64,000 nt of DNA. Origin: Verrucomicrobiota bacterium (GTDB taxonomy: Bacteria > Verrucomicrobiota > Verrucomicrobiia > Opitutales > Opitutaceae). Both the position numbers and the translations under genes were made by a program. The notes beneath the pieces were generated by a model that was given only the letters and a program-made list of their open reading frames with translations, ran no database searches and was not told where the DNA came from. Below are positions 12,110 through 42,253 of this stretch, piece after piece; the stretch's first letter is position 1, and each line of letters begins with the position of its first letter. Location: the NCBI GenBank assembly GCA_028293545.1, contig JAQGOP010000043.1:127651-191650 (forward strand), given 5' to 3'.

Positions 12110-13520
12110 GCCCGCGCCCGCCTCATTGAAGATCGTGAACCCGGCAGACGGACGCGTGTTCGCGTCGCTTCCCTGCGACGACCGTGCTGCGGTGCGCGAC
12201 AAGTATCGGGCGGCGCGCACGGCGCAGACCGCCTGGGCCGGGCAGCCCCTTGCGGAACGCCTGGCGGTCATCGCTCGCTTTCGCGCGCTGCTGGTGCGCG
12301 ATGCCGAGGAATTGGCGCGATTGCTGACCCGGGAAATGGGGAAGCCGATCGCGCAGTCGCGCAACGAGCTCAAAGGCGTGCTGGGCCGCATCGATTTTTT
12401 CCTCGCGGAAGCGCCCGGGGTCTTGGCGGCCGAGGATGTTCACCGGGAAAAAGATGCGAGCGGCGGAAGCCTCGTCGAGCGGATCACGCAGGAACCGCTC
12501 GGGGTCATCGCGAACATCTCGGCGTGGAATTACCCGTATTTCGTGGGCGGGAATGTTTTTCTCCCGGCGCTGCTGGCCGGGAACGCCGTGCTCTACAAGC
12601 CGTCGGAGTTCACCACCCTCACCGGGCGCGCGATAGCGGAGAGGCTGGATGAGTCGGGCCTGCCCCGGGACGTTTTCATCCCGCTCGTTGGCGGCGGCGC
12701 GGTGGGGGCGGAGTTGCTGCGGCAGCCGGTCGACGGCGTGTTTTTCACCGGCTCCGTCGCGACCGGAAAGAAAATCGCGCGGGCGATGGCGTCGCGGATG
12801 GTCAAGGTGCAGCTCGAACTCGGGGGCAAGGATCCGACTTACGTGTGCGACGACGTGGCCGACGTGGCGCAGGCTGCGGCGAGTTTGGCCGACGGCGCGT
12901 TTTACAACACCGGGCAGAGCTGCTGCTCGGTCGAGCGGATCTACGTCCAGGAAGGAGCCTTCGAATCCTTCGTAAAGGCGTTCGTGCAGGCGGTGAAAGG
13001 TTTCAAGCTGGGCGATCCCACGCGGGAAAGAACCTACCTCGGGCCGCTCGCGCGGGCGGCGCAGCTCGAGGTGCTGGAAGCCCAGGTCGCGGATGCGCAA
13101 CGCAAGGGCGCGCGGGTGCTGACCGGCGGGCGGCGCGTGAAGCGGAAGGGCAATTATTTTGAGCCGACGGTGTTGGTGGACGTCGACCACACGATGGCGG
13201 TGATGCGGGATGAAAGTTTTGGGCCCATCATCGGGATCATGAGCGTGCCGGGCGACGAGGCGGCGATCGCGCTGATGAACGACACGGAGTTCGGCCTGAC
13301 CGCGGGAGTGTATTCGTCGGATCGCGCGCGGGCGGAAAAAATCCTGGCGAGGGTGAAGAGCGGCTCGGCGTACTGGAATTGCTGCGACCGGGTGAGCCCG
13401 CGCCTGCCTTGGTCCGGCTATGGGAATTCCGGGATGGGCCTGACGCTCTCGCGCGCTGGGATTGCGACGTTCACGCGGCCGCGGGGCTGGCACCTGAAGG
13501 AGCGTAGCGGCTCAATGTAG
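12102..13520 (+). CDS. NAD(P)-dependent aldehyde dehydrogenase
   Basis: A 472-residue ALDH-superfamily enzyme. Visible motifs are NISAWNYPYFVGGNVFLPAL, YKPSEFTTLTG (cofactor Lys), FFTGSVATGKKIA, LELGGKDPTYVCDD (general-base Glu) and NTGQSCCSVERIYV (catalytic Cys). It should oxidise the gamma-glutamylated aldehyde produced by the preceding alcohol dehydrogenase to the acid, which the amidohydrolase then splits. The frame is open to 12015, but the ATG at 12102 with an 8-bp overlap to the previous gene is the natural start. The last codons read S-M-stop, with the TAG stop contributed by a palindromic repeat (TGTAGCGCAGGC) that starts at 13516. Confidence 0.93.
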   Translation: MPKPAPASLKIVNPADGRVFASLPCDDRAAVRDKYRAARTAQTAWAGQPLAERLAVIARFRALLVRDAEELARLLTREMGKPIAQSRNELKGVLGRIDFFLAEAPGVLAAEDVHREKDASGGSLVERITQEPLGVIANISAWNYPYFVGGNVFLPALLAGNAVLYKPSEFTTLTGRAIAERLDESGLPRDVFIPLVGGGAVGAELLRQPVDGVFFTGSVATGKKIARAMASRMVKVQLELGGKDPTYVCDDVADVAQAAASLADGAFYNTGQSCCSVERIYVQEGAFESFVKAFVQAVKGFKLGDPTRERTYLGPLARAAQLEVLEAQVADAQRKGARVLTGGRRVKRKGNYFEPTVLVDVDHTMAVMRDESFGPIIGIMSVPGDEAAIALMNDTEFGLTAGVYSSDRARAEKILARVKSGSAYWNCCDRVSPRLPWSGYGNSGMGLTLSRAGIATFTRPRGWHLKERSGSM

Positions 13521-13623
13521 CGCAGGCATCCTGCCTGCTTCGCTCCGTCTGAGCCCAGGCCCGGCCCAAGTACTCCCGCCGGTCCACCGTTTCAACCGGA
13601 GCAGGCAGGATGCCTGCGCTACA
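13516..13623. repeat. Palindromic repeat with perfect 24-bp arms
   Basis: Arms at 13516-13539 and 13600-13623 are perfect inverted copies with the core GTAGCGCAGGCATCCTGCC, separated by 60 bp. The left arm supplies the aldehyde dehydrogenase stop codon. The hairpin may double as a transcription terminator for the four-gene cluster, although there is no clear T-run. Confidence 0.7.
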
Positions 13624-13682
13624 TCCGGACACGCCGCAGGTTTTGTCCTGTAAAATTCGGGGACACGCGACAGGCTGCATCC

Positions 13683-14063
13683 ATGGTCAAAAAACTTTTG
13701 CACACGCGCATGCGCGTGAACGATCTCGGGCAGACGATTAAGTTTTACCAGGATGCCCTCGGTTTGAAACTGTCGCGCCAGCACACGTCGCCGCGCGGGG
13801 CGCAGCTGGCATTCCTCCAGACGCCGAACAGCGAGGAGGAAATCGAGCTCTGCCAGCTGCCCAACAGCCCGAGCGTGCAGGTGCAGCCGGACTTGATGCA
13901 CCTGGCGTTCGAGGTCGAGGACCTGGCGGCGTTCGCCGCGGCCCTCGAGAAAAAAGGTTACAAGCTCAGCGATGGCCCGACGAAGACCGGCAGCGGCTCG
14001 GTGATCGCTTTCATCGATGCGCCCGAGGGCTATGAAGTGGAATTGATCCAGCGCGCGAAGTGA
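13683..14063 (+). CDS. VOC family / glyoxalase I-like protein
   Basis: A 126-residue single-domain vicinal oxygen chelate protein. Putative metal ligands are His 7 (KKLLHTRMRV), Glu in EEEIELCQ, His in DLMHLAFEV, and Glu in GYEVELIQ, the H-E-H-E order of lactoylglutathione lyase. The N-terminal RVNDLGQTIKFYQDALGLKL is the family signature. A methylglyoxal-detoxifying role is plausible. It is shorter than E. coli GloA (135 residues), and other VOC functions such as methylmalonyl-CoA epimerase-like activity cannot be ruled out. It overlaps the next gene by 4 bp. Confidence 0.85.
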   Translation: MVKKLLHTRMRVNDLGQTIKFYQDALGLKLSRQHTSPRGAQLAFLQTPNSEEEIELCQLPNSPSVQVQPDLMHLAFEVEDLAAFAAALEKKGYKLSDGPTKTGSGSVIAFIDAPEGYEVELIQRAK

Positions 14064-18053: not shown

Positions 18054-18135
18054 GCCCGGGTGGTGGAATTGGCAGACACGACGGTCTTAGAAGCCGTTGC
18101 CGCAAGGCTTGCAGGTTCGAGTCCTGTCCCGGGCA
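18054..18135 (+). tRNA. tRNA-Leu (anticodon UAG)
   Basis: The acceptor arms GCCCGGG (18054-18060) and CCCGGGC (18128-18134) pair perfectly, with discriminator A at 18135. The anticodon arm is ACGGT-CTTAGAA-GCCGT, giving anticodon TAG. A long variable arm (TTGCCGCAAGGCTTG region) is typical of class II tRNA-Leu. The T arm is GCAGG-TTCGAGT-CCTGT. The 3' CCA is not encoded. Confidence 0.95.
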
Positions 18136-18256: not shown

Positions 18257-18952
18257 CTACGGGTTTTTCCGCGGTAGCAATCTACGCGCGTGCCGTCTCG
18301 CGAGGAGGCCACAAATCGCACTCCCAGTGAGGAGCAGTAATGCGGTCGACGCATTATCCGGCACCGATGATCCGCCAGTCCCAACGCTGCTCAGGAGAAT
18401 CCGCGCATTCGCGCTACCGTCTCCCCCTCCCTCGTATCCGTTTATTCCGCTCGAAAACACTAGCTCGTAATGATGCGTGTCGAAAGAGTTGAAAACCACA
18501 GTTTCATTGAAACTGTAATTGGGATAACTCGGGTAGTAAAAACCTGTCACGTTCGATCCGTCCGTGAGGTCGTGAATGAAAATGTCGAGGTACGCATAGT
18601 CATTTACGCGTCCCGATAAATTAAACGTCGTCTGCCCCGTGAGCGCACGAAATGTGGTCGTATTCCAAAGGGTAAAGTGTGCATCTCCCTCGTCGTCTGG
18701 AACCGCACCATACGCGAAGCCGGAGAAGCTGAATGTGCTCATCGTTACCGCGCCACCGACTCCGCCGACTGAAATGGGCGTGCCATTCGAACTCGCGGCA
18801 TGGTAGCCATATGTTTGATCGGAAACAGCGGTGTCTCTGGCGTAGCCGTCGATCGAGATATAGGAAGACAGAATATAAATGCCATTGGCATACGCGCTAA
18901 CGGCTGTAAAACAAAGGAAGGCAAGGAACGTCGCGCGCAAGGGGGTTTTCAT
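18257..18952 (-). CDS. Secreted protein with VPD-type CTERM sorting signal
   Basis: A 231-residue exported protein. The start at 18952 gives a signal peptide (MKTPLRATFLAFLCFTAVSAYA). The mature part is rich in Ser, Gly, Tyr and aromatic residues, with no recognised enzyme motif. The C-terminus reads SVPDNASTALLLLTGSAICGLLARRHARR: a VPD-x-x-ST motif, a hydrophobic helix, then Arg-rich tail, as in VPDSG/PEP-CTERM exosortase substrates. Such proteins are probably processed and attached to or released at the cell surface. The function is unknown. It is the first gene of the lower-GC stretch after tRNA-Leu, and differs from the PEP-type tails of the four large proteins at the end of the window. 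Confidence 0.75.
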   Translation of the reverse strand: MKTPLRATFLAFLCFTAVSAYANGIYILSSYISIDGYARDTAVSDQTYGYHAASSNGTPISVGGVGGAVTMSTFSFSGFAYGAVPDDEGDAHFTLWNTTTFRALTGQTTFNLSGRVNDYAYLDIFIHDLTDGSNVTGFYYPSYPNYSFNETVVFNSFDTHHYELVFSSGINGYEGGGDGSANARILLSSVGTGGSSVPDNASTALLLLTGSAICGLLARRHARRLLPRKNP

Positions 18953-19088
18953 TGGGTTGGTAATTCTGCGAGGCGCGACCGAGTTGTGCAAGCTCCTCCC
19001 CAGTTAGGTTTGATGGCGTCGGCGCATTTCTCCGCGTTGCGTCTCACGTAGAATTTTTTAACGCTCGAAATTTTGAACCGTCGTTGTG

Positions 19089-19142
19089 CTCATACTCATA
19101 CTCATACTCATACTCATACTCATACTCATACTCATACTCATA
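19089..19142. repeat. Hexanucleotide tandem repeat (CTCATA) x9
   Basis: Nine uninterrupted copies of CTCATA lie in an otherwise gene-poor gap (18953-19379). On the minus strand it reads TATGAG and would encode Tyr-Glu repeats in an ORF (19044-19514) that otherwise lacks coding character. A perfect hexamer array is prone to slippage and keeps all frames open. Confidence 0.9.
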
Positions 19143-19379
19143 CCACGTTGCCCCGTCTGGGCCGATTTTCATCTGGCCGGTTCTTCGGCCGCTCATCTGC
19201 ATTTGCTGCTTGGTGGGCAACTCTGGCTCCGAAGTCAGGCTTGCTTTGAGGGCGGACGCACTTGCCGTAACGGGTTGAAAAAATCCCGAGTCCCGGGGCT
19301 CTTCGGTTCTAAGATATGAGGTTATACTGGAGGATTTGAGATACTTGATTTTTACGAACGCCTTCCTCTTCCTGATTTC

Positions 19380-19640
19380 ATGGTTTGCAGAATGTGCGGA
19401 CAGAAGAAGAAATTGATCGAGGCGCACATCATTCCGCGGAGTTTTTTCCGAATCTCGCCCGAGGAAAAGATTCCTTCGCTGCTCGTGACAAACGTCGAGG
19501 GACAGCACACGCAAAAACTGTGGAAGGGAGTTGCCTCAACGACCAATTCGTCCTGCAGAACGATCATGTTTAGCAACTGGAGAAGGACTTCGACCTCTAT
19601 GCCTGCGGACGAACCGTTCGCACTTCGTGCCCTGCAGGAG
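19380..19640 (+). pseudogene. Decayed zinc-finger / HNH-like gene fragment
   Basis: The first about 50 codons read MVCRMCGQKKKLIEAHIIPRSFF..., with a CxxC pair followed by EAHIIP, the pattern at the start of a family of small zinc-binding, HNH-like proteins often found in defence and mobile regions. Similarity then continues in a different frame (LNDQFVLQNDHV, a TAG stop, then QLEKDFDLYA), which indicates at least one frameshift near 19527 and one nonsense codon. The remains end close to the helicase gene on the opposite strand. The intact relative is probably several times longer. The family assignment rests on a short motif and is moderate. Confidence 0.45.
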
Positions 19641-19748
19641 CGCTGGACGGGAAAATTTCCACCCGCGGCTCGGGATCCAGGCCCGCGAGGAAAGTACTCC
19701 CAACATCCTGCAGGGTAAAATTGTCGATCATGAGCGAGGCTGGCTTCG

Positions 19749-22067
19749 TCATAGACTTGGCTCCTCGGACGTGACCGGGTCTCGCGGTCTCTCATTTAGG
19801 GGATCGGGATTTGCTCGGGACTCTCGAGCATTTGACCTGGAGGACGGACTTACCAAGTCCGCCAACAGCGACAGCGTCCCTGGGACATCCAGATATTGGG
19901 CCGCGAAGTTCACATTGAGCACATCTTCCGGCAGCTTCTCATCCCACTTTTCTCGGATCTTGGTCTGGACGGTTGCCGCAATCTCGAGAGCGGAGGGCGG
20001 ACGCTGCGCGAGCATTTCACGTAAGGTCTCGAGGACTTCCGTCACGCTCACGCCCTTGACTTCGATGTACAGGCGATCGTTCTCGGCCGCGACTTTCCTC
20101 GCCTGCAACATCAGGGTCAACGTATCGACGATCCGGTCGCCCTTCCATGGCAAGATTTGAACAGTGGCTCCCGCCGCGCGAATCTGTACGCGATCCAGGT
20201 TCAACGCGTGATACTGATCCCTCCCTTCCTTCAGCAGCTTTTGCGCAGTGGCGTCGAGGAAAGGAATGTTGTCGTCAGACTGCAGGATCGCGCGCATTTC
20301 TTCGCGCACGCGAGTGTGGAGCATCGCTCCGGAGTCTCCTTCAAAATTTGGGAGCGCGCCGCCACCGCCGGGCCGGACCTCGATCACGAGCTCCTCTTGG
20401 GAAACACTCACGACTTCCCAACGGCGCCCACCGAAGATCACAAAACCACCGGGAGCCAAAGGCCGGGTCACCGGCATTGAACCCAGGAGCCTTCCGGCGG
20501 TGACAACGCGAAACTCCTCCCGAGTACTGAAAGCCGCGTAGAAGGTGTAGTGCTCGACGAGTCTTTCGCCTTTCGGGGCGAGCAGAATAAGGCCGGTTGG
20601 ATCTTGGAAGATGATCTCCTGTGCTCCCAGGCCACGAAGAAGGGACCCAAAGATCTCGGGGTCGAGCGCCGGGAATGCGCCGCGCGCACAGAGCATATCC
20701 CAAAGCGCGCTCGCATGCGCCCCGCCAAATTGGGCGAGCAGAGAAAGCAACTGCTGCACGAGCGTCGAAGCGTGTAGCCCCTCAGTCCCGATGGGCTCGT
20801 ACCATCCGCGCGTGAGGAGCCGCACCATGGCAATGGTCTGCACGAGATCGCAGCGCAGCTGATCAGCGAGATCCGATTGCAGCGTGAGCTGTCGCTCGAT
20901 CACGTAGCCTCGCAGGATCGCCGATTCGCCTTTCCGGCGACCCGAACGCCCCAATCGCTGGCGCAGGCTCGCGACCGAAGGCGGTGGCCCGATTTGGGTG
21001 ACGCTCTTGACTGAACCAATGTCGATCCCGAGTTCGAGAGTACTCGTGCAGATGGCCGAGGCCGGGCGCTCCTTTTGTTTCAGAGCTTCCTCAGTCTGCT
21101 CGCGGATCTCCTTCGAGAGGTTTCCGTGATGTGGCCAGAATTCATTCGGGACGCGGGCTTCCTCGCAGCAGCGGCGCAAACGGTCGGCGAAAAATTCCAC
21201 AGCGCTCCGGCTGTTGGGGAAAATGAGGTTATTGGATCCCCGCAGAACCTTGAAAAGATCAAGGGCGATGCTGGATTTCGCGATCAACTCAGCGTCGGCG
21301 ACTTCGTCAGCTTTTGCGCCCGGAGCAGCTGCCGGCTGCTGTACGCCGCGAATCAAAACTTTTAGCTCCTGGCCTCCCTCCTTGGCTTCAATCAGTACGA
21401 CCGCCGGGCCATGGCCTTGGCGGAGAAAATCCTGGGCGCCGGCCATGTCGCCGAGCGTCGCGGAAAGGCCGATCCGTGGCACCGAGCGATCGAGCAGGCG
21501 GTCGATCCGGTGCAATTGTGACTGGAGCTGTTTCCCTCGTTCGGCGCCCATGAACGAGTGCAGTTCGTCGATCACGATGTAGCGCAGGCCGGAGAAGATC
21601 GCGAGGAGCGCACTTCCTTGACGCATCAACATGGCCTCCATCGATTCCGGAGTAATCAGTACACAGCCACAGGGACGCTTGAAAAATTTCGTTTTCCGCG
21701 AGGCTGCGATGTCGCCGTGCCACGGCGTAACGGGAATCTCCAGCGATTCGGCCAAGCTTTCGAGCCGAGTCCATTGATCGTTGATCAGGGCTTTGAGGGG
21801 GCTGATATACACCGCGAGGCCCATGTCTTCGGGCTCCTGCGCCAGCCGAGTGAGAATAGGTAGGAAGGCGGCTTCAGTTTTGCCAGAGGCCGTCGACGCC
21901 GCAATGATCACATCCCGATCGCCGGCCAAGATCGGGGGAATTGCGCGTTCTTGCGCGTCGCGTAATTCGGTCCAGCCCGATTGCCAAATCCAGCGTTGGA
22001 TGCGGGGATCGAGCCGATCGAAACTGCTCGAACGCGTCTCAGAGTTTGAATTTGGCGAATTCGTCAT
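19749..22067 (-). CDS. Lhr/BrxHI-like superfamily II DEAD-box helicase
   Basis: A 772-residue ATP-dependent helicase. Motif I is ASTASGKT (57-64), motif II DELH (167-170), motif III SAT (202-204). The second RecA domain has CTSTLELGIDIG (340-351) and QRLGRSGR (370-377). The T-S-x-LELGIDIG form is characteristic of Lhr-like helicases, including the BrxHI helicases of BREX-type clusters. After the core, about 380 residues contain winged-helix/Lhr-like extension (GGRRWEVVSVSQEELVIEV) and a Ser/Arg-rich tail. The start overlaps the preceding ATPase gene by 29 bp, so it is the third gene of a coupled operon with the BrxD-like ATPase and TerB-domain protein. It probably remodels DNA for that complex. 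No nuclease motif is seen. Confidence 0.88.
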   Translation of the reverse strand: MTNSPNSNSETRSSSFDRLDPRIQRWIWQSGWTELRDAQERAIPPILAGDRDVIIAASTASGKTEAAFLPILTRLAQEPEDMGLAVYISPLKALINDQWTRLESLAESLEIPVTPWHGDIAASRKTKFFKRPCGCVLITPESMEAMLMRQGSALLAIFSGLRYIVIDELHSFMGAERGKQLQSQLHRIDRLLDRSVPRIGLSATLGDMAGAQDFLRQGHGPAVVLIEAKEGGQELKVLIRGVQQPAAAPGAKADEVADAELIAKSSIALDLFKVLRGSNNLIFPNSRSAVEFFADRLRRCCEEARVPNEFWPHHGNLSKEIREQTEEALKQKERPASAICTSTLELGIDIGSVKSVTQIGPPPSVASLRQRLGRSGRRKGESAILRGYVIERQLTLQSDLADQLRCDLVQTIAMVRLLTRGWYEPIGTEGLHASTLVQQLLSLLAQFGGAHASALWDMLCARGAFPALDPEIFGSLLRGLGAQEIIFQDPTGLILLAPKGERLVEHYTFYAAFSTREEFRVVTAGRLLGSMPVTRPLAPGGFVIFGGRRWEVVSVSQEELVIEVRPGGGGALPNFEGDSGAMLHTRVREEMRAILQSDDNIPFLDATAQKLLKEGRDQYHALNLDRVQIRAAGATVQILPWKGDRIVDTLTLMLQARKVAAENDRLYIEVKGVSVTEVLETLREMLAQRPPSALEIAATVQTKIREKWDEKLPEDVLNVNFAAQYLDVPGTLSLLADLVSPSSRSNARESRANPDPLNERPRDPVTSEEPSL

Positions 22068-23364
22068 CGCGAGCAGACGGTGCTACGGCGGTGCCGAGTT
22101 CAAGGGCGGCCTCCCGGGCGGCTCCGTCATCCTGCGCGATCGTGACTGCACTGAGGAGAGATCGCCATTCCGTGCCGGGATTTTGCTGCAGAACGGCGAG
22201 GAGGTTCACGAAGGACGTGATCGTGGTGCGAGGGGTGCGAAAATACGCTTCGCCGATTCGCTCGTGGCAATGGGCCATGAACGCGGTCAGAGCCTCGTCC
22301 GGCAGTGGATATTTCTTCGGGTCGCCAAAGGCGAAAACGTGCTGGATCTTTTGCAAGAGCACCAAGAAGTCTTCCTGGCTCAGGCTGGAAAGGCGAATGA
22401 CCGGATGCTGGTAGTCGACTAAGCCGTCTTTCGCGAAGGTGTTTTCGGCGAGCCGCGATTGGAGCGCCGCGTAGCTGTAAAGCCCGCGGCGCGTGTCCAG
22501 GAGAAATTCCGGCGTGCCGCCGAGCACGAAGCCGAGGCCCTCGGTCGTCCCCTGTAAGACATCATTCAAGATGCGCAAAATTTGTTCGTAGTTGGCATTG
22601 CGAGCTTGGGAGTTTGAAAGCTTGTAGAGATTAACCATCTCATCGAGGCACACCAGCAACCCAGCGAACCCGCAGAGGCGGACGAAAACGCTCAGGAGTT
22701 TGAGCTGATCGTAGACCGAAGCGTCATCGATGATTGTGCGCACACCCAGGGCGGCGCGGGCATCGGTCTTGGTGGTGAATTCCCCACGCAACCAGCGAAT
22801 CGCATTCGCTTTCAACTGCTCGTTGGAGTCCTGATGACCTCGCCAGTAAGCCTCGATCACTTTGGCGAAATCGTAGCCGTTCACCATCTCCGACAGTCGA
22901 GAGAGTTTCTTGGCAATGATGGCATCAACTCCGAGATTCGCTTCTTTGGCTTCGGTCGTTGCGGTGTAAATGAATTTTTCGACAATGCCGGGCAGGGCGC
23001 CGCCGTCCGGTTTGGTGCGAGTCGAAAGATTCTTGCTCAGTTCCGCATAGAGGGACCGAGCTTTACCGTCGGATGCTTGCAGGCGGCGGTCGGGGTTGAG
23101 ATCGGCGGTCGTAGCCACGAGTTTTTTCTCGAGCGCGATCGAGCGGACGAGATTTAGGAAAAACGTCTTGCCCGAGCCGTATTCCCCGATGACGAGGCGG
23201 AAACCGGTTCCCCCATCGGCGAGGCGATCGATGTCCTTCATCAACGAATCAATTTCCTGCGCGCGTCCGACTTGGATCAGATATTGCCCTACACGGGGCA
23301 CGACTCCGGCGCGGAGTGCTTGCACAACGGAATCTCGATCTTTGGGGCGAATGGGAGAGGTCAT
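22039..23364 (-). CDS. BrxD-like (DUF2791) P-loop ATPase
   Basis: A 441-residue AAA/STAND-like ATPase of the BREX BrxC/BrxD family. The P-loop is IGEYGSGKTFFLNL (60-67), Walker B is LLVCLDEM near residue 240, and NLYKLSNSQARNANYEQILRILNDVLQG and FVLGGTPEFL are the family's following segments. The C-terminal part (LPDEALTAFMAHCHERIGEAYFRTPRTTITSFVNLL) matches the lid region. The family forms DNA-associated ATPase complexes in BREX phage defence, and also occurs outside BREX beside TerB-domain proteins and helicases. The ATG overlaps the upstream TerB gene's stop by 4 bp, and its stop overlaps the helicase start by 29 bp. No pglX, pglZ, brxA or brxB lies nearby, so this is not a complete BREX locus. 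Confidence 0.87.
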   Translation of the reverse strand: MTSPIRPKDRDSVVQALRAGVVPRVGQYLIQVGRAQEIDSLMKDIDRLADGGTGFRLVIGEYGSGKTFFLNLVRSIALEKKLVATTADLNPDRRLQASDGKARSLYAELSKNLSTRTKPDGGALPGIVEKFIYTATTEAKEANLGVDAIIAKKLSRLSEMVNGYDFAKVIEAYWRGHQDSNEQLKANAIRWLRGEFTTKTDARAALGVRTIIDDASVYDQLKLLSVFVRLCGFAGLLVCLDEMVNLYKLSNSQARNANYEQILRILNDVLQGTTEGLGFVLGGTPEFLLDTRRGLYSYAALQSRLAENTFAKDGLVDYQHPVIRLSSLSQEDFLVLLQKIQHVFAFGDPKKYPLPDEALTAFMAHCHERIGEAYFRTPRTTITSFVNLLAVLQQNPGTEWRSLLSAVTIAQDDGAAREAALELGTAVAPSARDDEFAKFKL

Positions 23365-26300
23365 GCAGCGGTTTCCTTGAGTAAATGGACTCCGACATCG
23401 AGGGGGTCTTCGCCCTCAATGAGCGGCTGATTGTACTGGGTGAAAGCAGCGTCGTTGATCCTCTCGATCGCGCCATCGGTCATCAAGCCTTTGTCCGTGC
23501 AGATTTCCTCAAACTCGCCCCGGGTCCATTGCGCGCGGCCGAGAACCACTGCCAAGAGTTCAGCGTGCGCTGAGTCCAATCCAAGAAGTCCGAGTGGGGG
23601 GGAGTCCGGTCTATTCGCGGCTGCGAATTCCTTTGGCTGCTCAACGACGGCCGGAGTATCTTCGACGTAAATCGCAGCGACGCGTTGAGAAACTTGGTCG
23701 GAGGAGGCGCGCAAGCGCGCCACTTTCTCCATGTCCAATTTCAGTGGGCCGGAGCGCTGCGCCGGCGCCGGTGAAGGAGTTGTCGTAGGGATTGCCGCAA
23801 GCCCGTGAAGTCGCGAATAGAGCATGGAGCTATCTAGGGCCAAGAGTGTATAGATTTTCTCCATGATCCGAACTTCGGCCGGATCCACGAGGCCGTCGGC
23901 GTAGACGACTGTGAGCAAGAAATCGGCGACTTGGGCGCGGATGCCGGCGCTGAGGGGTGCGATGGCCGCTTTGAGGCCGTTCGTTGAAGGCGACTTCAAG
24001 CGATTGACGGCCATGCGGGCGAGCAGTCGTTGGCGACCGGCAGGTTCTACTTCGGGCGTTTTTTGGAGCTCCTCTTGCAGCCGCCGAATTTCCGGTTCGG
24101 AGAAATCGCGGTCTGCACTCGCGACGGCGGAGGCGAGCTGGAGCAGAAGAGAAGCAAAGCCGAAACCGCGGCCGAGTTCTGGGGTTCCTTCGACAGGAAA
24201 GAGGGCGATAGGGTCGTCGATACCGGGCACCTCTTTGGTAAATTGCAGGCTTGGTTCGATGCCGATCTTCAACGTGCCCAGGGCTTGCGCAAGGGCGACG
24301 TATTGGGCGCGGGTGGGAGCGAGCGTGTGCTCGAAGATCGCCATCAACGAGCGCAGCGGATGCGTGGCCGGAATACCCGACTGGCGACTGGAGCGCATGA
24401 AGGTTTCCAGTTCGGTGCGAAGGGATTCCGGCCAGAGGACGGGGGGAAGCAACAATCGGGATTCCCACGAATCAGGCTGATCACGATTGCGCGCCACAAA
24501 CCGGCTGTAGCCGTCCAATTGCTCGAAACAGGCTGTCGCGACTTCATCGAGTTTGGCATAGCTCGCGGTGAGAACCGAAACGTCGGGTAGATCCACCGCT
24601 TGCGCTAGAAATTCTCCGAACGAGGCACTCGCCGCTCGATAAGTGATTTTGAGCCGGGTCTTATTGGCCGGTAAAAGGAGCCCCTCGCCATATCTACGCT
24701 GATACTCGTGAGTGAAGAGACTTTTGAAGTGATCGGGACAACGCTCTGCGGCGGCCAAAAGCCTTGTACGGGGATCTGAGTAGTACCATGCGTACGCCCA
24801 GTTCGCCGGGAGCGGTTCGCCGTCGACGGCGAATTTGCCGAGCTTGCGTCGTAGTTCGAAAGAGAGCTGGTAGCGTTCGACGGCGGGCGGCGCTGCGGTT
24901 GAATCGAAGCCCGAGTCAATGGCATGAAGCGTTTCGACGTAGTTGAGGAAGTCGCCGGAGTATTTGTTGAAACTACGATTGGTCGCGAAGATCGCCCGGA
25001 GGCGTTTTACCTCGGCAATGATGTGCTCACGATCGGATACCGCACTCGGGTCATTGGTCGGATCGGAGAGAGCTCGGCGTTCGAGTCCGTAGAAATAGAG
25101 GAAAACATAGCCGACATCGGCGGCAGGGTCTGCTTTCCCGTCGGCAATCCATTGCAGATACGAGGCCCGCGCCGTTGGTTCTGCTTCGGAATAATTGGAC
25201 CAGTAGTTCAACATCCGTTGCCGGGGATTGGCGGCGGCGAGGTTAAGTGGAAGTTCGGGATCGATGAGCGCAGGTTCCAGCGAACGACCGTGAATGGCGC
25301 CCAAGTCTTGACCGACATAGAGGAGGCCTCCGGTAAGTTTGAAGCCGCCAACTGAGGTCGTCCTTCCCATTGGAATCCAGCACTCAGCCGAGGTGGCTGA
25401 GAACGTCGGTGCCTGCTGTACCGAAGATTGGCTTAGGGAGACATCGATTTTGAACGAAGGACGCCCAGTGATCTGGTAGGTGCGTGCCGGCGCAGCAGTG
25501 GATTGGACATGAATCGGTTCTTCCGCGGGCATGGAGATGTTTGGAGGAACGGAAGCTCCCATCAAGGAAGGGCCCAAGAGTTCGTCGAACGCCGCCTGAT
25601 ATTTCCCGCTCTGGGCAATGACATGGGCTGAGAGATTCGATGGCGAGATGGGAAGGCGGACGAGGGCGAGCGCCTCGGTGAGACGCGCGGTGGCTTGGCT
25701 AAAGGCCAAGCCCCAGTCACTGCCGGTTGCCATCCGACTTTGCAGCCGCTGCGCATGTTCGATCGCCGCGCGGAGCGGATCACGTGTTTGGGATTTAAAA
25801 ATCCACGTTAGGAAACCGGTTTGGTCCCGAATTTGGATCCATTCACTTTTGAATGCACCGGATGCAGCTTCCAGCGCGGCCCGCGCCGGCTTGAGGGTTT
25901 CGTGATTAATGTGCTGAAGGAAGATTCGCGCGAAGAGTTGTTTTCCAGCGGCATCCGTGTCGTCGAGCACCGGGTGCGGAATCGGCTGTCGGTACGCCGA
26001 CTTGGTGAGACTCGAGCAGGCGGCTGCAAGACGTGTGGCGGAATCCGGCCCAATTCCTCGCAGGCGCTCGAACTGAGGAGCCGACCAACCTTGGCACGCG
26101 AGGAGGTTCATGATGCCCATATCCCGCAGGGGTTGCATGCGAGCTCCAGGAGCCAGTTTTCGAATGTCGTCCAATGACACCGACTGTAAATAGCGCTTCC
26201 GCATCGCGGCGATATACGCTTCCCCGGCTTGCCGCGCAGCCGTGCGCATGCTCAAGATCTGCTCTTGGATTCGAGCTTCGAGCTCGTCGAATGAGCGGCC

Positions 26301-26837
26301 GAGCGCACGTAGTTTGCGACGCATGATTCCGGTCGCGGAAGTCTGGTACCAGACGATGAAACCAAGGATGACCGCGATGATGGCAGCCGCGGCAATCGCT
26401 TTCATTTCCGTGGCGCGCGCCGCAGCTGCGGTGGTCAGCGGGTCAACGAGAGAAAGAATGGGATTTTCAGAGACGACGGCGCTTGGGGGCGCAGCGACGG
26501 CCAGAGGAGTGGGGGCCGGCGGTGGGGCTTCCTGCAGAACTGCCACTAGCGCCTGAGTCGGATGAATCGGCCGCAACGTAATACCTAAGGAACGACTATC
26601 CGGAATCGGTGCCGGTGGGGAATTCTGCGCCATGCCCGGTGCTGGGGGAAGTGGCGTATTTGCAGTCACTGCAGTGGGAGCCGCAACTTCGTTTGCGACC
26701 GGATTCGAAACCGCGGCCGGCGGAAGTATAGCCGTTGCGCGCACCACTTTCGGTTTTGGCGCGGGGCCCGTTTTGTCGGTTTCGCAACCGGCGACAACGA
26801 GTGCGACCAACATCAATGCAGTGGGGTAAAGACGCAT
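23361..26837 (-). CDS. TerB-N / TerB / TerB-C protein with lipobox and membrane anchor
   Basis: A 1158-residue protein and the first gene of the coupled trio. The N-terminus is a lipoprotein-like signal (LMLVALVVAGC, Cys 18) and a Pro/Ala-rich linker. A membrane helix follows at about 146-165 (AIAAAAIIAVILGFIVWY), then a helical stretch with a helix-hairpin-helix-like motif (RLRGIGPDSATRL, near 259-270). A TerB-N region starts near 485, containing YLQWIADGKADPAADVGYVFLYFYGLERR (559-588). A TerB helical domain around 900-1010 (FGFASLLLQLASAVASADRDFSEPE), then TerB-C to the end (DSAHAELLAVVLGRAQWTRGEFEEIC, LIEGEDPLDV). TerB domains are known from tellurite/phage-resistance clusters. The membrane-anchored N-terminus is unusual and would tether a BrxD-helicase complex to the envelope. 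Confidence 0.82.
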   Translation of the reverse strand: MRLYPTALMLVALVVAGCETDKTGPAPKPKVVRATAILPPAAVSNPVANEVAAPTAVTANTPLPPAPGMAQNSPPAPIPDSRSLGITLRPIHPTQALVAVLQEAPPPAPTPLAVAAPPSAVVSENPILSLVDPLTTAAAARATEMKAIAAAAIIAVILGFIVWYQTSATGIMRRKLRALGRSFDELEARIQEQILSMRTAARQAGEAYIAAMRKRYLQSVSLDDIRKLAPGARMQPLRDMGIMNLLACQGWSAPQFERLRGIGPDSATRLAAACSSLTKSAYRQPIPHPVLDDTDAAGKQLFARIFLQHINHETLKPARAALEAASGAFKSEWIQIRDQTGFLTWIFKSQTRDPLRAAIEHAQRLQSRMATGSDWGLAFSQATARLTEALALVRLPISPSNLSAHVIAQSGKYQAAFDELLGPSLMGASVPPNISMPAEEPIHVQSTAAPARTYQITGRPSFKIDVSLSQSSVQQAPTFSATSAECWIPMGRTTSVGGFKLTGGLLYVGQDLGAIHGRSLEPALIDPELPLNLAAANPRQRMLNYWSNYSEAEPTARASYLQWIADGKADPAADVGYVFLYFYGLERRALSDPTNDPSAVSDREHIIAEVKRLRAIFATNRSFNKYSGDFLNYVETLHAIDSGFDSTAAPPAVERYQLSFELRRKLGKFAVDGEPLPANWAYAWYYSDPRTRLLAAAERCPDHFKSLFTHEYQRRYGEGLLLPANKTRLKITYRAASASFGEFLAQAVDLPDVSVLTASYAKLDEVATACFEQLDGYSRFVARNRDQPDSWESRLLLPPVLWPESLRTELETFMRSSRQSGIPATHPLRSLMAIFEHTLAPTRAQYVALAQALGTLKIGIEPSLQFTKEVPGIDDPIALFPVEGTPELGRGFGFASLLLQLASAVASADRDFSEPEIRRLQEELQKTPEVEPAGRQRLLARMAVNRLKSPSTNGLKAAIAPLSAGIRAQVADFLLTVVYADGLVDPAEVRIMEKIYTLLALDSSMLYSRLHGLAAIPTTTPSPAPAQRSGPLKLDMEKVARLRASSDQVSQRVAAIYVEDTPAVVEQPKEFAAANRPDSPPLGLLGLDSAHAELLAVVLGRAQWTRGEFEEICTDKGLMTDGAIERINDAAFTQYNQPLIEGEDPLDVGVHLLKETAA

Positions 26838-27255: not shown

Positions 27256-27798
27256 GTGCACCCGAATGAAGACGTATTCCGCGAGGGGAGATCAGATCTC
27301 CCGGATTTCGCTGGCACGTTCGCGTTCGTTTTCAGGGCGTGGTATTTCTCTCCAACGGGGCGTATCGCCGTCTACACCGAACGCGGGGTGACGTCGGACA
27401 TCCGTTACTTCCATACGGACGGATTGGGCTCTCTGACGGCGGTGTCGAACGAATACGGCCTCGTGGCAAAGCGGTTCGCCTTCGATGCCTGGGGAAAACG
27501 GCTTGTCCTTCCGACCAACGCACCGGGGCCAGGGGTGCTGGCGACATCAGCTAATATCGATGGCTATACGCGTGGTTTCACGGATCACGAGCAACTCGAC
27601 GACCTCGGACTCGTGCACATGCACGGGCGGATCTATGATCTAGTTTTAGGACGGTTTCTCTCCGCCGATTCGAATCTGGATAGCGACAACGATCCGCAGG
27701 CGTTCAACCGCTATGCCTGGAATGCCTTCCCCAAGCTGCGTCGCGGCTCCAACGAGGCGGCGGCCTTGCTTGCTCAAAACCCGATCCGTCACTACTAA
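27256..27798 (+). pseudogene. Orphan RHS-repeat C-terminal fragment
   Basis: About 180 codons encode only the end of an RHS/YD-repeat protein: DIRYFHTDGLGSLTAVSNEYG, the core RFAFDAWGKR, then GLVHMHGRIYDLVLGRFLSADSN and QAFNRYAW. A normal RHS protein has over 1000 residues upstream and carries on past NRYSYVLNNPL into a variable toxin tip. Here the conserved part is cut on the 5' side (the putative GTG at 27256 precedes unrelated residues), and after NRYAWNAF only 20 residues follow. It is therefore a truncated remnant, perhaps a displaced RHS cassette, and not a working toxin. Confidence 0.7.
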
Positions 27799-32995: not shown

Positions 32996-33105
32996 GCGGC
33001 TCACCATGCACACGCGGCGTTGCCTGCCAAGTTTGGGGTGTGCGCCGGACGTATTTCGTTGCTTCGGGTTCCGGGCATGCGTTTCAAAGATCGCGCAACC
33101 CCACC

Positions 33106-33864
33106 ATGCAATGGTACTACTCGATTAACGGGCAGCGGCTAGGTCCGGTCCCGGAGGCGGAATTTGAGCGGATGGTGCGCGATGGGATGATCAGGCCCGA
33201 AACGCTGGTATGGCGCCAGGGAATGAAGGAGTGGCAGGCCTATTCCACGACCCAACCCATCGCGGGCGAGGGCGAGGAGACCGAAACCTGCGCGGTCAGC
33301 GGAAAACGTTACCCGAAGCGGGAGATGATCCAGTTCGAAGGGAAATGGATCAGCGCGGAACACCGCGACGAATTTTTCCAGCGGCTGCGCGAGGGCGTCG
33401 GACAGCCGATGGACTTCACCTACGGGAACGTGGGCCGTCGGTTCTGCGCCAAGCTCATCGATGGGATCATTGGCGGCGTCATTGGGGTGAGCCTCAACAT
33501 GATCGTCGCGATGTTTGTCTTTGGTTCGGCCAATTACTTTCCTCGGGCGGCGCAGGGTTATTCGGCGCAGAAACAATTGCTCTTCCAAGTGATCACGACG
33601 CCGTTGGGCATCCTCGTCGGCCTCGCTTATGCCGTGTTTTTCATTTCCCGGTTCGACGCCACTCCGGGGAAGATGGCGCTGGGGCTGAAAATCGTGCGAC
33701 CGGACGGCTCGAAGTTGTCGACGCCGCGGATCATCGGCCGCCACTTCGCCGAGTGGATCAGCGGCGCGATCCTCCTGATCGGTTACATCATGGCGGGGTT
33801 CGACGACCAGCGGCGGGCTTTGCACGATCGCATCTGCGATACCCGCGTGATCCGGGTGGGCTGA
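33106..33864 (+). CDS. GYF_2-RDD domain membrane protein
   Basis: A 252-residue protein. Residues 1-50 form a GYF_2 domain (MQWYYSINGQRLGPVPEAEFERMVRDGMI, then WRQGMKEWQAY). A short linker contains ETCAVSGKRYPKREM, a small zinc-finger-like element common in such proteins. Then an RDD domain with about four membrane segments begins at YGNVGRRFCAKLIDGIIGGVIGV and includes RFDATPGKMALGLKIVRPDG and GRHFAEWISGAILLIGYIM. GYF_2 domains bind Pro-rich or other peptides; RDD is a membrane domain of unclear transport or anchoring role. First gene of a co-directional run that leads to MoxR. Confidence 0.85.
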   Translation: MQWYYSINGQRLGPVPEAEFERMVRDGMIRPETLVWRQGMKEWQAYSTTQPIAGEGEETETCAVSGKRYPKREMIQFEGKWISAEHRDEFFQRLREGVGQPMDFTYGNVGRRFCAKLIDGIIGGVIGVSLNMIVAMFVFGSANYFPRAAQGYSAQKQLLFQVITTPLGILVGLAYAVFFISRFDATPGKMALGLKIVRPDGSKLSTPRIIGRHFAEWISGAILLIGYIMAGFDDQRRALHDRICDTRVIRVG

Positions 33865-33871
33865 CCGCGAA

Positions 33872-34447
33872 ATGATCGCGAGTTCCGCGCTGTCCTGCCC
33901 GAAATGCCAGCGAACGCTCGACGAGCTTTCGTGGCATGACAGTTCGGGCGGGCGCTGCCGGCAGTGCAACGCGGAGTTCGTATTCGTGGAATTTCCCGCG
34001 CTGACACGCGCCCCGACGCGGGTCACGCCAAAGGCCGTGGTGGTGTCGGAGCACGCGACGTGTTTTTTCCACGCGCAGAACGAGGCGGAGTCCGTCTGTG
34101 AATCCTGCGGGCGCATGCTGTGCGCGGTGTGCACGGTGGAATTTTCGGGCCGGCGCCTTTGTCCCAGCTGCATCGCCCTGGCGCGCAAGTCGCCGAAGGC
34201 CGCGTCGACCCACCGCGTGCTGTACGGCGGCATCGCGCTTTCGCTGGCGATCCTGCCGCTTTTCCTGTGGCCCTTCACGGCGGTGACGGCGCCGCTGTCG
34301 CTGGGGTTCGTAATTTTTGGCTGGCGCAAGCCGGGGAGCTTGGTCGGCGGGGGCCGCGCGAGGCTGATCATCGCGGGGATGCTGGCGCTGATGGAAATCG
34401 CGGCGTGGATTGTCGTGCTCGCCTTCGGATTCACGCGCCACCGCTAA
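33872..34447 (+). CDS. Zinc-ribbon/B-box-like membrane protein
   Basis: A 191-residue protein with an N-terminal zinc ribbon (CPKCQRTLDEL, CRQCNAEF) and a second B-box-like finger (CFFHAQNEAESVCESCGRMLCAVCTVEF, then CPSCIALAR). Two hydrophobic stretches follow (GGIALSLAILPLFLWPF and LIIAGMLALMEIAAWIVVLAFGF). It starts 8 bp after the GYF/RDD gene. Similar zinc-finger-plus-DUF4190-like membrane proteins are common in Verrucomicrobia, with no assigned function. Confidence 0.75.
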   Translation: MIASSALSCPKCQRTLDELSWHDSSGGRCRQCNAEFVFVEFPALTRAPTRVTPKAVVVSEHATCFFHAQNEAESVCESCGRMLCAVCTVEFSGRRLCPSCIALARKSPKAASTHRVLYGGIALSLAILPLFLWPFTAVTAPLSLGFVIFGWRKPGSLVGGGRARLIIAGMLALMEIAAWIVVLAFGFTRHR

Positions 34448-34451
34448 TCCC

Positions 34452-34964
34452 ATGCCCAAGACCCCACGCACTTACCAGCGGCTCACACGGCCGACATCGT
34501 CGATCGGCAGCTACAACAGCCTCTGGGTCGCGAAGGACCATTTGCTGATCGTGAAGTCGAACGGTTATTCCGAGGAATACCAGCAGCTCCAGCTGCGGGA
34601 CATCCAGGGCATCTGCATCGTCGATTCGGGTCGCCGATTCAATTGGGCCCTCGGCTGGGGGACGGTCGCCGCGGTCAGCGGCCTGTTCACGATCGGATCC
34701 TATTTCGCCCACGAGACGCCGTGGGTTTCGGGGGTGATCCTGATTCCCTCCCTGGTCGCGTTCACTTGGAATCAACTGCTGGGGGCAGGTTGCCAGGTCG
34801 TGGTGATGACGGGCGTGCAAGCGGCGAAGCTGCCTTCGCTGGTGCGCTGGCCGAAGGCGCGGAAGGTGCTCGCGCGGATTCGCCCGTTGATCGATGCGGC
34901 CCAGGCCGACCTCCTGACCCAGCCGGTGGCTGCGCCGGTCGAACCGCCACCTCCGCTGGTGTGA
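34452..34964 (+). CDS. Membrane protein of unknown function
   Basis: A 170-residue protein with a beta-rich N-terminal domain that looks PH-like (SYNSLWVAKDHLLIVKSNGYSEEYQQLQLRDIQGI), two hydrophobic segments in the middle (WGTVAAVSGLFTIGSYF, VSGVILIPSLVAFTWNQLL) and a cytoplasmic tail ending Pro-rich. It starts 5 bp after the zinc-ribbon gene and ends 3 bp before the next start, so it belongs to the same operon. Confidence 0.7.
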   Translation: MPKTPRTYQRLTRPTSSIGSYNSLWVAKDHLLIVKSNGYSEEYQQLQLRDIQGICIVDSGRRFNWALGWGTVAAVSGLFTIGSYFAHETPWVSGVILIPSLVAFTWNQLLGAGCQVVVMTGVQAAKLPSLVRWPKARKVLARIRPLIDAAQADLLTQPVAAPVEPPPPLV

Positions 34965-34966
34965 GC

Positions 34967-35311
34967 ATGATCGCGCCCGCGCCCTTTGCCGACGGCACGC
35001 TGCGCGCGCGGCGCTGCGTGCGTCATGGCGATCGCGAGGCCGCGGCGCGATGCCCGGAGTGCGGGCGTTTTTTCTGCCGGGAATGCGTGGTCGAGCACGA
35101 CGGGAAAATCCTGTGCGCGGACTGCCTTGCGCGGAGCGCGGTCGCCAGCCGCGCCGCGCACCGGGGTCGCGGCATTCGCCGTTCGCTCGGCCTGGCTGCG
35201 GCGGTGATGTTCACGTGGCTGATTTTTTATGGGGCGGGCCTGCTGCTGTTGCGGATCCCCGCCTCGTTTCACGAGGGCACGGTCTGGCAGACGGAGGCAC
35301 CGGCGCCATGA
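34967..35311 (+). CDS. Small B-box zinc-finger membrane protein
   Basis: A 114-residue protein. One B-box-like zinc finger, CVRHGDREAAARCPECGRFFCRECVVEHDGKILCADC, is followed by a single membrane helix (SLGLAAAVMFTWLIFYGAGLLLL). It resembles the second finger of the protein encoded at 33872, so the two may share a role in binding partners at the membrane. Its stop overlaps the next start (ATGA). Confidence 0.75.
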   Translation: MIAPAPFADGTLRARRCVRHGDREAAARCPECGRFFCRECVVEHDGKILCADCLARSAVASRAAHRGRGIRRSLGLAAAVMFTWLIFYGAGLLLLRIPASFHEGTVWQTEAPAP

Positions 35312-36954
35312 GCCGGCGCGAGGCCCGCGATCCCGCGGCTGGCCCGACTGCGGTTGAACTGGTCGAAGAGAGCGTGCACCTGCTGCGGACGGCGGCGCCG
35401 GGGACGATGCTCGTCTATTACGCGGGCTCGATTCCGTTCACGCTCGGCCTGTTGTTTTTTTGGGCGCACACGACGTGGTTCGCGCCGACGGGAGTGGAGC
35501 TGGCGTGGTCGGCGTTGGGCCTGACCGTGCTCTTCGGCGCAATGAAGGCGGCGCACGCGGATTTTTGCGCCCGGTTGCTCGCGCAGCGACTGGGTGCGAG
35601 TTCGCGGACGAGGGATGGGCGCGGCTGGGCCAGGCTGGCGGCGGACTCGTTTCGCGTCCAGGCGTTCGGGTTGGTGATCCTGCCGCTTTCCTTGTTGGCG
35701 GGCGTGCCGTTTGGCTGGGTCTACGCGTACTTCCAGAATCTCAGCGTGCTGGCGGACGAAGCGGACGCGACGACGGTGGCGCGCTCGCAGGCCGCGCTCT
35801 GGCCGGGCCAGAACCACCTTGGGCTGTTGATTTTTTTTGGGCTGGCGCTGTGTGCGTGGATCAACCTGGCGGGGGCGTTGTGGATGGTGCCGTGGTTCGC
35901 GAACCGCGTGCTGGGGATTGAAAACGTGTTCGGGCTTTCCGGGCGGTGGTTTCTCAACACGACGTCGCTCGCGTCGGTGACAATGTTGACGTGGCTGGCG
36001 GTGGATCCGTTGTCGAAGGCGTTTTATACGCTGCGGGTTTTCCACGGCCGCGCGCGGCGGACGGGCGAGGATGTGCGGGCGGATTTGCACGCGGCGCGGC
36101 CGAGCGGGCGGGCGCTGGCGGCGGTGATGCTGCTGATGCTGGCCGGGTCGATGGTCCCTGGCCTGCGCGCGGCCGAAGCCGTTGCACCGGTTCCCTCGAA
36201 GATCAGCGCGGGCCGGCTCGACCAGGCGATCGAACACACGCTGGCGGGGCGCAATTTCCAGTGGCGGCTTCGCCCGGTGCCGGTGATCAGGCCGGCGTCG
36301 GGCGACGGTCCCATCTATCGTTTCATCCAGGCCGGCGCGGATTGGGTGGTCGAGGCGGCGCGGACGGTCGGCCGCGCCATCGGCCGGGCGTTCAAGTGGT
36401 TCTCCGATTTGTTTCGATCCTCGGCGCCGCCCGCGGCCCCCAGCGACAGCGGGGTGAGCGGGGCGGTGCTGGGCGACCTGATGATCGTGATCTCGATCGC
36501 GATCGGCGCGGGCCTGCTGACCTGGGTGGGAATGGCGGTGTGGAAACGCGCGCGTGAAACCAGGGCGCCGACGTTGAACGCACGCCTGACTGCAGTGCCC
36601 GTGCCGGACCTGAATGATGAAAACACGCAGGCCGCGCAGTTGCCGACCGACGGCTGGCTCGCGCTCGCGCGGGAGCAGATGGCGCGCGGGGAATGGCGGC
36701 TCGCGTTGCGCGCGCTGCACCTCGCAATGCTGGCGCGGCTGGCGGCGGAGGGCTGGGTGTCGCTGGCGAAATTCAAAACCAACCTCGACTACGAGCGGGA
36801 ACTGCGCCGGCGCGCGGTCGCGCGCGGGGAATTGCCGGAGCGATTCGCGCAACGTCGGCGGTTTTTTGAAGCGGCATGGTATGGGCGGGCGGAGCCGGCG
36901 GAATCGGAGGCGCGCGCCTGGCTGGCTGAACTCGAACCCGGGTCGAAGCCATGA
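35308..36954 (+). CDS. DUF4129-like multi-pass membrane protein
   Basis: A 548-residue protein with about six N-terminal membrane helices. A further helix near the end, LGDLMIVISIAIGAGLLTWVGMAVW, is followed by a cytoplasmic helical domain (GWLALAREQMARGEWRLALRALHLAMLARLAAEGWVSL) that resembles the DUF4129 tail of MoxR-cluster proteins. The central loop, with a Pro-rich periplasmic part, lies between residues 290 and 400. It overlaps its neighbours on both sides by 4 bp. Such proteins occur with DUF58, DUF4350 and MoxR genes and are presumed envelope components of a chaperone-like complex. Confidence 0.75.
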   Translation: MSRREARDPAAGPTAVELVEESVHLLRTAAPGTMLVYYAGSIPFTLGLLFFWAHTTWFAPTGVELAWSALGLTVLFGAMKAAHADFCARLLAQRLGASSRTRDGRGWARLAADSFRVQAFGLVILPLSLLAGVPFGWVYAYFQNLSVLADEADATTVARSQAALWPGQNHLGLLIFFGLALCAWINLAGALWMVPWFANRVLGIENVFGLSGRWFLNTTSLASVTMLTWLAVDPLSKAFYTLRVFHGRARRTGEDVRADLHAARPSGRALAAVMLLMLAGSMVPGLRAAEAVAPVPSKISAGRLDQAIEHTLAGRNFQWRLRPVPVIRPASGDGPIYRFIQAGADWVVEAARTVGRAIGRAFKWFSDLFRSSAPPAAPSDSGVSGAVLGDLMIVISIAIGAGLLTWVGMAVWKRARETRAPTLNARLTAVPVPDLNDENTQAAQLPTDGWLALAREQMARGEWRLALRALHLAMLARLAAEGWVSLAKFKTNLDYERELRRRAVARGELPERFAQRRRFFEAAWYGRAEPAESEARAWLAELEPGSKP

Positions 36955-38156
36955 GCCGTCGCGTCCAAGTCACCTTGTTGGTTGCGCTGCTCGTGGCTTT
37001 GGCGGCGAGCCTCGCGGTGCTCTATCGGCTGCGGATGGGGCAGGGTGATGTTTTCCCGACGTATTCCACGCTGCGCGCGGACCCGGTGGGCTTGCGCGCC
37101 CTTTATGAAAGTCTCGACGAAATCCCCGGGGTGCGCGTGACGCGATGGCTGAAGCCGATCGGCCAGTTGCCGGCGAGCCCGGCGCGCACCGTGATGATCG
37201 TGGGGCTCACGACGGCGCAGTGGGAGAGCTTTTCCGCGGAGGAATTTTCCGCGCTCGACGCGGCGGTGCGCGGAGGAAGCCGGCTGGTGATCACCCTCCA
37301 GGCGCCGGCCGATCTTGAGCCGCTGAAGGTGCATCCCGAGGCCCCGGTGAAGCCCAAGGAGGAGGAGAAGGCGAAGGATAAGCCCGATGGGAAAAAGCCA
37401 ACCCCGCAGCCTCGTGGGCGCCTGCCGGCGGAAGAAACCGCCGCCGAAAAATTGCCGGCGCGAATGGACCTGGCGAAATTGTGGGGCTTGGAATTAAAGC
37501 GGCGCCCGTTTCGCGGGAGCGTGCGCCGGGCGGTTGGCGTTGACGCGACCCTGCCCGCGCAACTGGCGTGGAACAGCGGCGTTTATTTCCTCCCGAGGCA
37601 AGGCGCGGGGTGGAAGGCGATTTATTCCGCCCCGGACCCGATGGTGCTGGAGCGCCCGCTCGGGCTGGGGTCGATCGTCGTGGCGGGGAGCTCTTATTTC
37701 CTGAGCAACGAAGCTTTGCAGCGCGACCGCGCGGTGAGCCTCCTCGTGCTGGTGGTGGGCCAGCAGTCCCGCGTGGAATTCGTCGAGAGCCACCTCGGGG
37801 TGGAGGCCAATCCGGGCATCGCGGCGCTCGCGCGGCGATACGGCCTGGCTCCCGCGTTTTTTTCGCTGCTGGTGCTGGCGGGGCTGTTCGCATGGCGGCG
37901 CATGGCGCATTTCGTGCCGCCGAACGAAACGACGGATCGCATTGTGCTGAAGTACAACCAGACGGCGGGCTTGGGGGCATTGCTGCGGCGGGCGGTGCGC
38001 CCGGCCGACTTGATGGCAGCCTGCGCCGCGGAATGGCGGGTCACGGCGAGGCCGGCCGATCGCGAGCGGGCCGACGCCGTGCTCACGCAGCCGGGCCGCC
38101 GGGCCGGGCCGGCCGATCTTTATAACGCTGTGCTGGGCGCGTTGCGCCGGCGCTGA
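36951..38156 (+). CDS. DUF4350 domain membrane protein
   Basis: A 401-residue protein with an N-terminal membrane segment (VTLLVALLVALAASLAVLY). The DUF4350 region is built on YSTLRADPVGLRALYESLDEIPGVRVTRW and MIVGLTTAQWESFSAEEFSALDAAVRGGSRLVIT, a Rossmann-like module. A charged Lys/Pro-rich insert lies near residues 125-160. A second membrane segment is at about 300-320 (FFSLLVLAGLFAWRRM), followed by a helical tail. It overlaps the DUF4129-like gene by 4 bp. DUF4350 proteins nearly always neighbour MoxR and DUF58. Confidence 0.82.
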   Translation: MSRRVQVTLLVALLVALAASLAVLYRLRMGQGDVFPTYSTLRADPVGLRALYESLDEIPGVRVTRWLKPIGQLPASPARTVMIVGLTTAQWESFSAEEFSALDAAVRGGSRLVITLQAPADLEPLKVHPEAPVKPKEEEKAKDKPDGKKPTPQPRGRLPAEETAAEKLPARMDLAKLWGLELKRRPFRGSVRRAVGVDATLPAQLAWNSGVYFLPRQGAGWKAIYSAPDPMVLERPLGLGSIVVAGSSYFLSNEALQRDRAVSLLVLVVGQQSRVEFVESHLGVEANPGIAALARRYGLAPAFFSLLVLAGLFAWRRMAHFVPPNETTDRIVLKYNQTAGLGALLRRAVRPADLMAACAAEWRVTARPADRERADAVLTQPGRRAGPADLYNAVLGALRRR

Positions 38157-38170
38157 AAAACATTTCACCC

Positions 38171-39136: not shown

Positions 39137-39149
39137 CCTCCCAGCGCCG

Positions 39150-42246: not shown

Positions 42247-42253
42247 GCCGATC

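Follow-up and report, generated by a model that had tools for sequence, protein, structure and literature searches.

Can a bacterium sense phage entry at its envelope, as has been proposed for Zorya, rather than through DNA in the cytoplasm? An operon of three minus-strand genes raises this question. It lies in a 64,000-nucleotide stretch from an Opitutaceae genome (Verrucomicrobiota bacterium, GenBank assembly GCA_028293545.1, contig JAQGOP010000043.1, positions 127,651 to 191,650; here called the window). The operon is, near certainly, a complete copy of Shango, an anti-phage system that is already published and not new. What appears to be new, judging from its sequence, is the N-terminus of the first protein, SngA: the system is known, and the way in which SngA may be held at the membrane is our subject.

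Identity of the operon

The genes sngA, sngB and sngC are adjacent and on one strand, and their open reading frames (ORFs) overlap by 4 bp and then by 29 bp, just as a sequence-only reading of the window had described. PADLOC holds a Shango model for each of the three products, which matched at 272 bits (SngA), 596 bits (SngB) and 899 bits (SngC). The Pfam families above their cut-offs in the operon were TerB_N, TerB and TerB_C; BrxC_BrxD; and DEAD and Helicase_C. The profile searches that the earlier reading had proposed for TerB_N, TerB_C and BrxD thus returned what it expected (Table 1). Its further reading, a stand-alone system distinct from canonical BREX, stands, and the trio itself has already been published as Shango.

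Millman et al. reportedly presented Shango as a defence system in 2022. In the available text of PMC10250203, Shango consists of a TerB protein, an ATPase and a helicase, and the Shango of Pseudomonas aeruginosa PA14, placed in strain PAO1, had 10- to 100-fold effects on many but not all phages. The window copy has the same order of TerB protein, BrxD-like ATPase and helicase, and differs in that about 485 residues precede TerB_N in its SngA, an extension common to locus L024 (genome G330) and partly to locus L031 (a Lacunisphaera metagenome-assembled genome). SngB and SngC retain their ATPase and helicase motifs: SngB carries GEYGSGKT at residue 60 and LVCLDE at 237, and SngC carries GKT, DELH, SAT and QRLGRSGR. 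All 24 of the 24 NCBIfam families listed for SngC scored under their own cut-offs. A sequence search of the PDB returned no match for SngB at the limits used, and SngC matched helicases. Restriction of phages by the window copy is predicted.

The N-terminus of SngA

Only residues 472-1148 of SngA are covered by its PADLOC match, which leaves out the extension, whose membrane-type character the earlier reading had not noticed. This extension starts with a lipoprotein-type signal, followed by a linker rich in proline and alanine and by a hydrophobic helix (Table 1). We use 'lipobox' and the motif names here as labels assigned by eye. SngA is most likely bitopic, with the signal or lipid anchor and the linker outside, one transmembrane helix, and the TerB core inside; its cytoplasmic part most likely comprises a coiled coil, a helix-hairpin-helix (HhH)-like segment and the TerB_N/TerB/TerB_C core. 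The net charge around the helix changes from -1 before it to +5 after it. An AlphaFold model of SngA places a helix at 132-166 and has good confidence across most of the TerB core, with pLDDT below 50 over residues 1-142; modelled alone, the N-terminal inner domain was poor (mean pLDDT 49.5). A linker of some 125 residues would be long enough to cross the periplasm.

The same layout of signal and lipobox, outside region, membrane helix and inner TerB core recurs in L024, with a lipobox of its own (LTGGC), if translation starts at Met 60 of the longest ORF. In L031 the signal sequence lacks a lipobox and the outside region differs; the layout otherwise resembles that of the window protein. A three-way alignment shows that the region just inside the membrane is kept in all three, with the motif LRGIGP(D/E)SA. 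The segment that contains it, SngA 216-281, is probable as an HhH rather than proven, with a local pLDDT of about 70-86. As a stand-alone family, SngA 165-485 was set aside: among 273 genomes of the order, only G000, G330 and a weak, stop-bearing match in G484 were found. A fold search of the PDB with full SngA found nothing at E 0.001, its top matches being 2h5n (unknown function) and 2ou3 (a tellurite resistance protein), at E 0.03-0.17.

How general a membrane segment is in SngA was addressed by a census of 82 complete SngA proteins and the window's own, drawn from 80 closely related genome loci and from 14 loci taken more widely within the phylum. The 80 are the best of 535 by closeness to the window SngB, near copies included, so Shango is not randomly sampled here. 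Left out were L050, L056, L060, L061, L065, L068, L077, L079, L082, L105 and L109 (whose SngA is missing, short or truncated at a contig end) and L074 (only part of SngA matched); L069, L076 and L107 were restored with an SngA ORF found by BLAST. ORFs were called from the earliest start, so some N-termini are perhaps too long. We counted as a hydrophobic segment any 19 residues before TerB_N with a mean hydropathy of at least 1.8, a threshold that shuffled versions of the window's own N-terminus reach in 40% of draws.

Such a segment was present in 47 of the 83 SngA, with 4.6 expected from shuffles of the same N-termini. In the SngA core, nearly fivefold longer than the N-termini, it was found in 3 of 83. 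The first 150 residues of the partner proteins contained none (0 of 94 SngB, 0 of 88 SngC), and their full lengths three each (3/94 and 3/88). A further set of hand-picked SngA from plasmids (ten, out of 672 records matching L103) and E. coli (three, out of 479 genomes) carried the segment in 11 of 12 cases, L159 being left out of the count; both E. coli SngA inspected open with a membrane segment and then lysines. On the SngB tree the segment is clustered, with at least 18 changes of label compared with 29.2 when labels are shuffled. The TerB domains are widely retained across two sets of 58 and 26 SngA that both include the window's: TerB_C in 58/58 and 26/26, TerB_N in 56/58 and 26/26, and TerB in 50/58 and 22/26.

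Three alphaproteobacterial SngA (L095, L103 and the plasmid copy L152) also carry the peptidoglycan-binding domain PG_binding_1 (51, 57 and 33 bits; cut-off 23), preceded by a start that looks signal-like by eye; in L152 a membrane helix after the outside domain was likewise identified by eye. Other N-terminal domains were Sel1 in two SngA, DUF2510 in one and DUF4236 in one. From these sequences we propose an inner-membrane tether as a frequent feature of Shango. The literature searched, which lacked the original Shango paper, contained no account that we could find of an SngA that spans the membrane or binds peptidoglycan; for Bunzi and Shango, Millman et al. reportedly suggested that TerB is linked to the membrane.

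Table 1. Features of the Shango operon, in window coordinates (residue numbers refer to SngA)
Feature	Position	Strand	Basis
Shango operon sngA-sngB-sngC	19749..26837	-	PADLOC models for all three, overlaps
sngA, 1158 aa, TerB-domain protein with N-terminal extension of ~485 aa	23361..26837	-	Pfam, PADLOC
Putative lipoprotein-type signal, residues 1-18, lipobox-like VAGC end (C18)	26784..26837	-	sequence reading
Pro/Ala-rich linker, residues 19-143, predicted periplasmic	26409..26783	-	26 P and 26 A in 125 residues
Predicted transmembrane helix, residues 145-163, then positive stretch	26349..26405	-	Kyte-Doolittle mean 2.37 over 19 residues
HhH-like segment, residues 216-281 (LRGIGPDSA)	25995..26192	-	conservation, sub-cut-off Pfam, model
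TerB_N, residues 490-693	24759..25370	-	153 bits, cut-off 25
TerB, residues 900-1004	23826..24140	-	43 bits, cut-off 24.4
TerB_C, residues 1022-1153	23379..23774	-	79 bits, cut-off 26.3
sngB, 441 aa, AAA+ ATPase of BrxC/BrxD family	22039..23364	-	Pfam PF10923, 505 bits
sngC, 772 aa, superfamily 2 helicase, BrxHI/Lhr-like	19749..22067	-	PADLOC SngC 899 vs BrxHI 406 bits

Where Shango may act

On balance, we consider it rather probable that Shango works with a membrane-anchored SngA that serves as an envelope sensor or as a scaffold for the ATPase-helicase pair. The sequences support a membrane location; the topology, the complex, the trigger, the loading step and the outcome are our inferences. 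At the inner membrane, SngA would keep SngB (the AAA+ ATPase) and SngC (the helicase) in place. A disturbance of the envelope, or DNA reaching the membrane, would act as the trigger, upon which SngB would load SngC onto the arriving DNA; this DNA would then be unwound or remodelled, and phage replication would be blocked. The loading step is carried over from BREX, since BrxD is proposed as a possible loader of BrxHI in the available part of PMC12839542. A stronger version is more tentative, and we consider it less likely than not: Shango may be a form of envelope surveillance, in which SngA spans the inner membrane, touches the peptidoglycan or perhaps, through its lipid anchor and linker, the outer membrane, and at phage entry switches a membrane-held helicase loader that captures the incoming DNA.

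Zorya, composed of ZorAB with ZorCD or ZorE, would resemble such an arrangement only in how it works, with a membrane protein that reaches the peptidoglycan and a cytoplasmic partner that acts on DNA (PMC11890865, as far as its text was available). By contrast, SngA has no match to a ZorA or ZorB model, and the Shango proteins have no nuclease domain that we could find. For the window proteins, no Zor model was among the PADLOC matches listed (one family for SngA, two for SngB and 25 of 56 for SngC).

Several observations weigh against a membrane-based Shango. The topology is based on a hydropathy scan rather than a trained predictor, and the second segments of L031 (1.74) and L152 fall below the 1.8 threshold. 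Because the lipobox pattern also matches eight other SngA N-termini, it is not telling on its own. The charge rule is weak: among 58 segment-bearing proteins, the charge after the last segment is higher in 35, lower in 20 and equal in 3. Among eight copies considered singly it is higher in six (window, L024, L026, L029, L095 and L103), all of which have an outside region or a second segment; the other two, L031 and L152, are uninformative, as the score covers just their signal. The HhH-like segment reached Pfam RecR_HhH, HHH_5 and HHH below cut-off (E 0.0019-0.015 over the three proteins), its Foldseek matches, among them the N-terminal lobe of RAD51 (TMt 0.75, E 3.7), were not significant, and its PDB matches by sequence were at chance level. 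The PDB yielded nothing for SngA by sequence at the limits used, and we found no structure of Shango. A Pfam scan of the three proteins found no nuclease domain, which leaves the arrest of phage DNA unexplained. Finally, 36 of the 83 SngA lack the segment, including an actinobacterial branch (seven rows), the cyanobacterial rows (four) and the branch L017-L023 (seven), so Shango can do without the anchor.

These segment-free proteins are what would be expected if ordinary Shango acted wholly on cytoplasmic DNA, with the membrane segment as a dispensable, lineage-specific addition that does no more than enrich SngA at the membrane, and a DNA structure made by the phage as the trigger. The conserved parts, that is the TerB domains, the ATPase and the helicase, fit this account as well. 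We nevertheless regard it as somewhat unlikely: the segment occurs at about ten times its shuffled expectation, both E. coli proteins inspected possess it, and periplasm-type domains are fused to SngA in three alphaproteobacteria.

Two further explanations place the operon outside Shango-type defence. It could descend from type 2 BREX, as a remnant or an offshoot in which BrxD and BrxHI were retained and a TerB protein was added, and the homology of SngB and SngC to these proteins, which give the best BREX models in PADLOC (153 and 406 bits, with none for SngA), would agree with this. This idea is mostly refuted and improbable in the extreme. The Shango models are far ahead of the BREX models for both proteins, and SngB reaches only 148.6 bits with the NCBIfam BrxD equivalog, whose cut-off is 350. 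The window's own genome, a draft about 84% complete in which no search was made for PglX or PglW, yielded no PglZ; of 39 other genomes bearing the trio, two had PglZ above the Pfam cut-off and two more had matches below it. The upstream SngA, moreover, is retained in loci across many phyla. The earlier view of a stand-alone anti-phage system separate from BREX is borne out by these counts. The TerB domains could instead point to a system for tellurite or chemical stress. We consider this very improbable, since published Shango restricts phages (PMC10250203, in its available part) and the like-built L024 adjoins PADLOC candidate defence genes, namely PDC-S46 (two ORFs) and PDC-S15 at L024:622-3651 and 12928-13758, among six ORFs scanned; the four ORFs scanned beside the window operon contain no PADLOC defence match.

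Setting, descent and reach of the locus

The operon lies in a block whose GC content is about 0.54-0.61 across 17-29 kb, versus about 0.61-0.69 on either side, which upholds the lower-GC island recognized from sequence alone. Third-position GC is 0.64-0.69 in the operon and 0.85-0.88 in two flanking genes, the exceptions within sngA being its first 144 codons (0.56) and the 20 codons of the membrane helix (0.75). Together, these compositions suggest that the block is foreign. SngA was detected in 7 of 372 genomes of the order at E 1e-20 and SngB in 15 of 387 genomes of the phylum at E 1e-80, the window's genome included in both counts; among nine genomes listed from the same genus, SngA was found in the window's own only. 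A quick tree of 93 SngB groups the window copy with L024 and L031 (SH-aLRT 98) in a mostly proteobacterial part, apart from the same-family copies L025, L028, L029 and L030. Foreign composition, patchy presence in relatives and this placement make it most likely that the window copy was acquired horizontally. The distant branch L017-L023 of the phylum has SngA of 480-523 aa in six of its seven copies and no membrane segment. Eight Shango loci were seen in viral contigs, and SngB had no match in the phage record collection.

Comparison with 16.5-40 kb matching stretches of five same-genus genomes found no match above 150 bases to window 16.2-28.8 kb. In L140, L142 and L143, pieces matching window 14.9-16.1 and 28.8-29.8 kb are separated by 51-210 bases, and in the remaining two stretches the local order is different again; this variation suggests a site prone to rearrangement. 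A tRNA-Leu gene is present at 18054-18135, about 1.6 kb from the operon end, as had been pointed out. Neither a link between the two nor insertion at this tRNA is supported, its last 13 bases having no exact repeat elsewhere in the window. Among the supposed gene remnants, the four ORFs tested gave no Pfam or PADLOC match, and their remnant nature is a judgement by eye. By eye, too, ORF 27256-27798 looks like an RHS-repeat fragment and the short ORF 19380-19718 resembles the start of an HNH-type protein, both without Pfam or PADLOC match; ORF 18257-18991, without Pfam match, ends in VPDNAS...LLARR, with the look of a PEP-CTERM-type sorting signal. Just past the end of sngC lies a perfect hexanucleotide repeat (CTCATA, 9.2 copies, 19089-19143). 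Elsewhere, the block at 33000-42400 encodes DUF4350, DUF58 and SpoIIM proteins, with a DUF4129 match below cut-off; its flanking pieces are 0.1-0.3 kb apart in four sister stretches (L138, L140, L142 and L143).

Shango is common: among 5,426 complete E. coli genomes, 479 contain a match to an Enterobacter sngB, which spans 80% or more of the gene in 467. A 2026 review (PMC12926258, in its available part) gives the mechanism of Shango as unknown. A membrane anchor with swappable outside domains offers a concrete, testable starting point. If the envelope reading is true, Shango would join Zorya as a second solution to the same problem, one that needs no motor and has swappable sensor domains on the outside.

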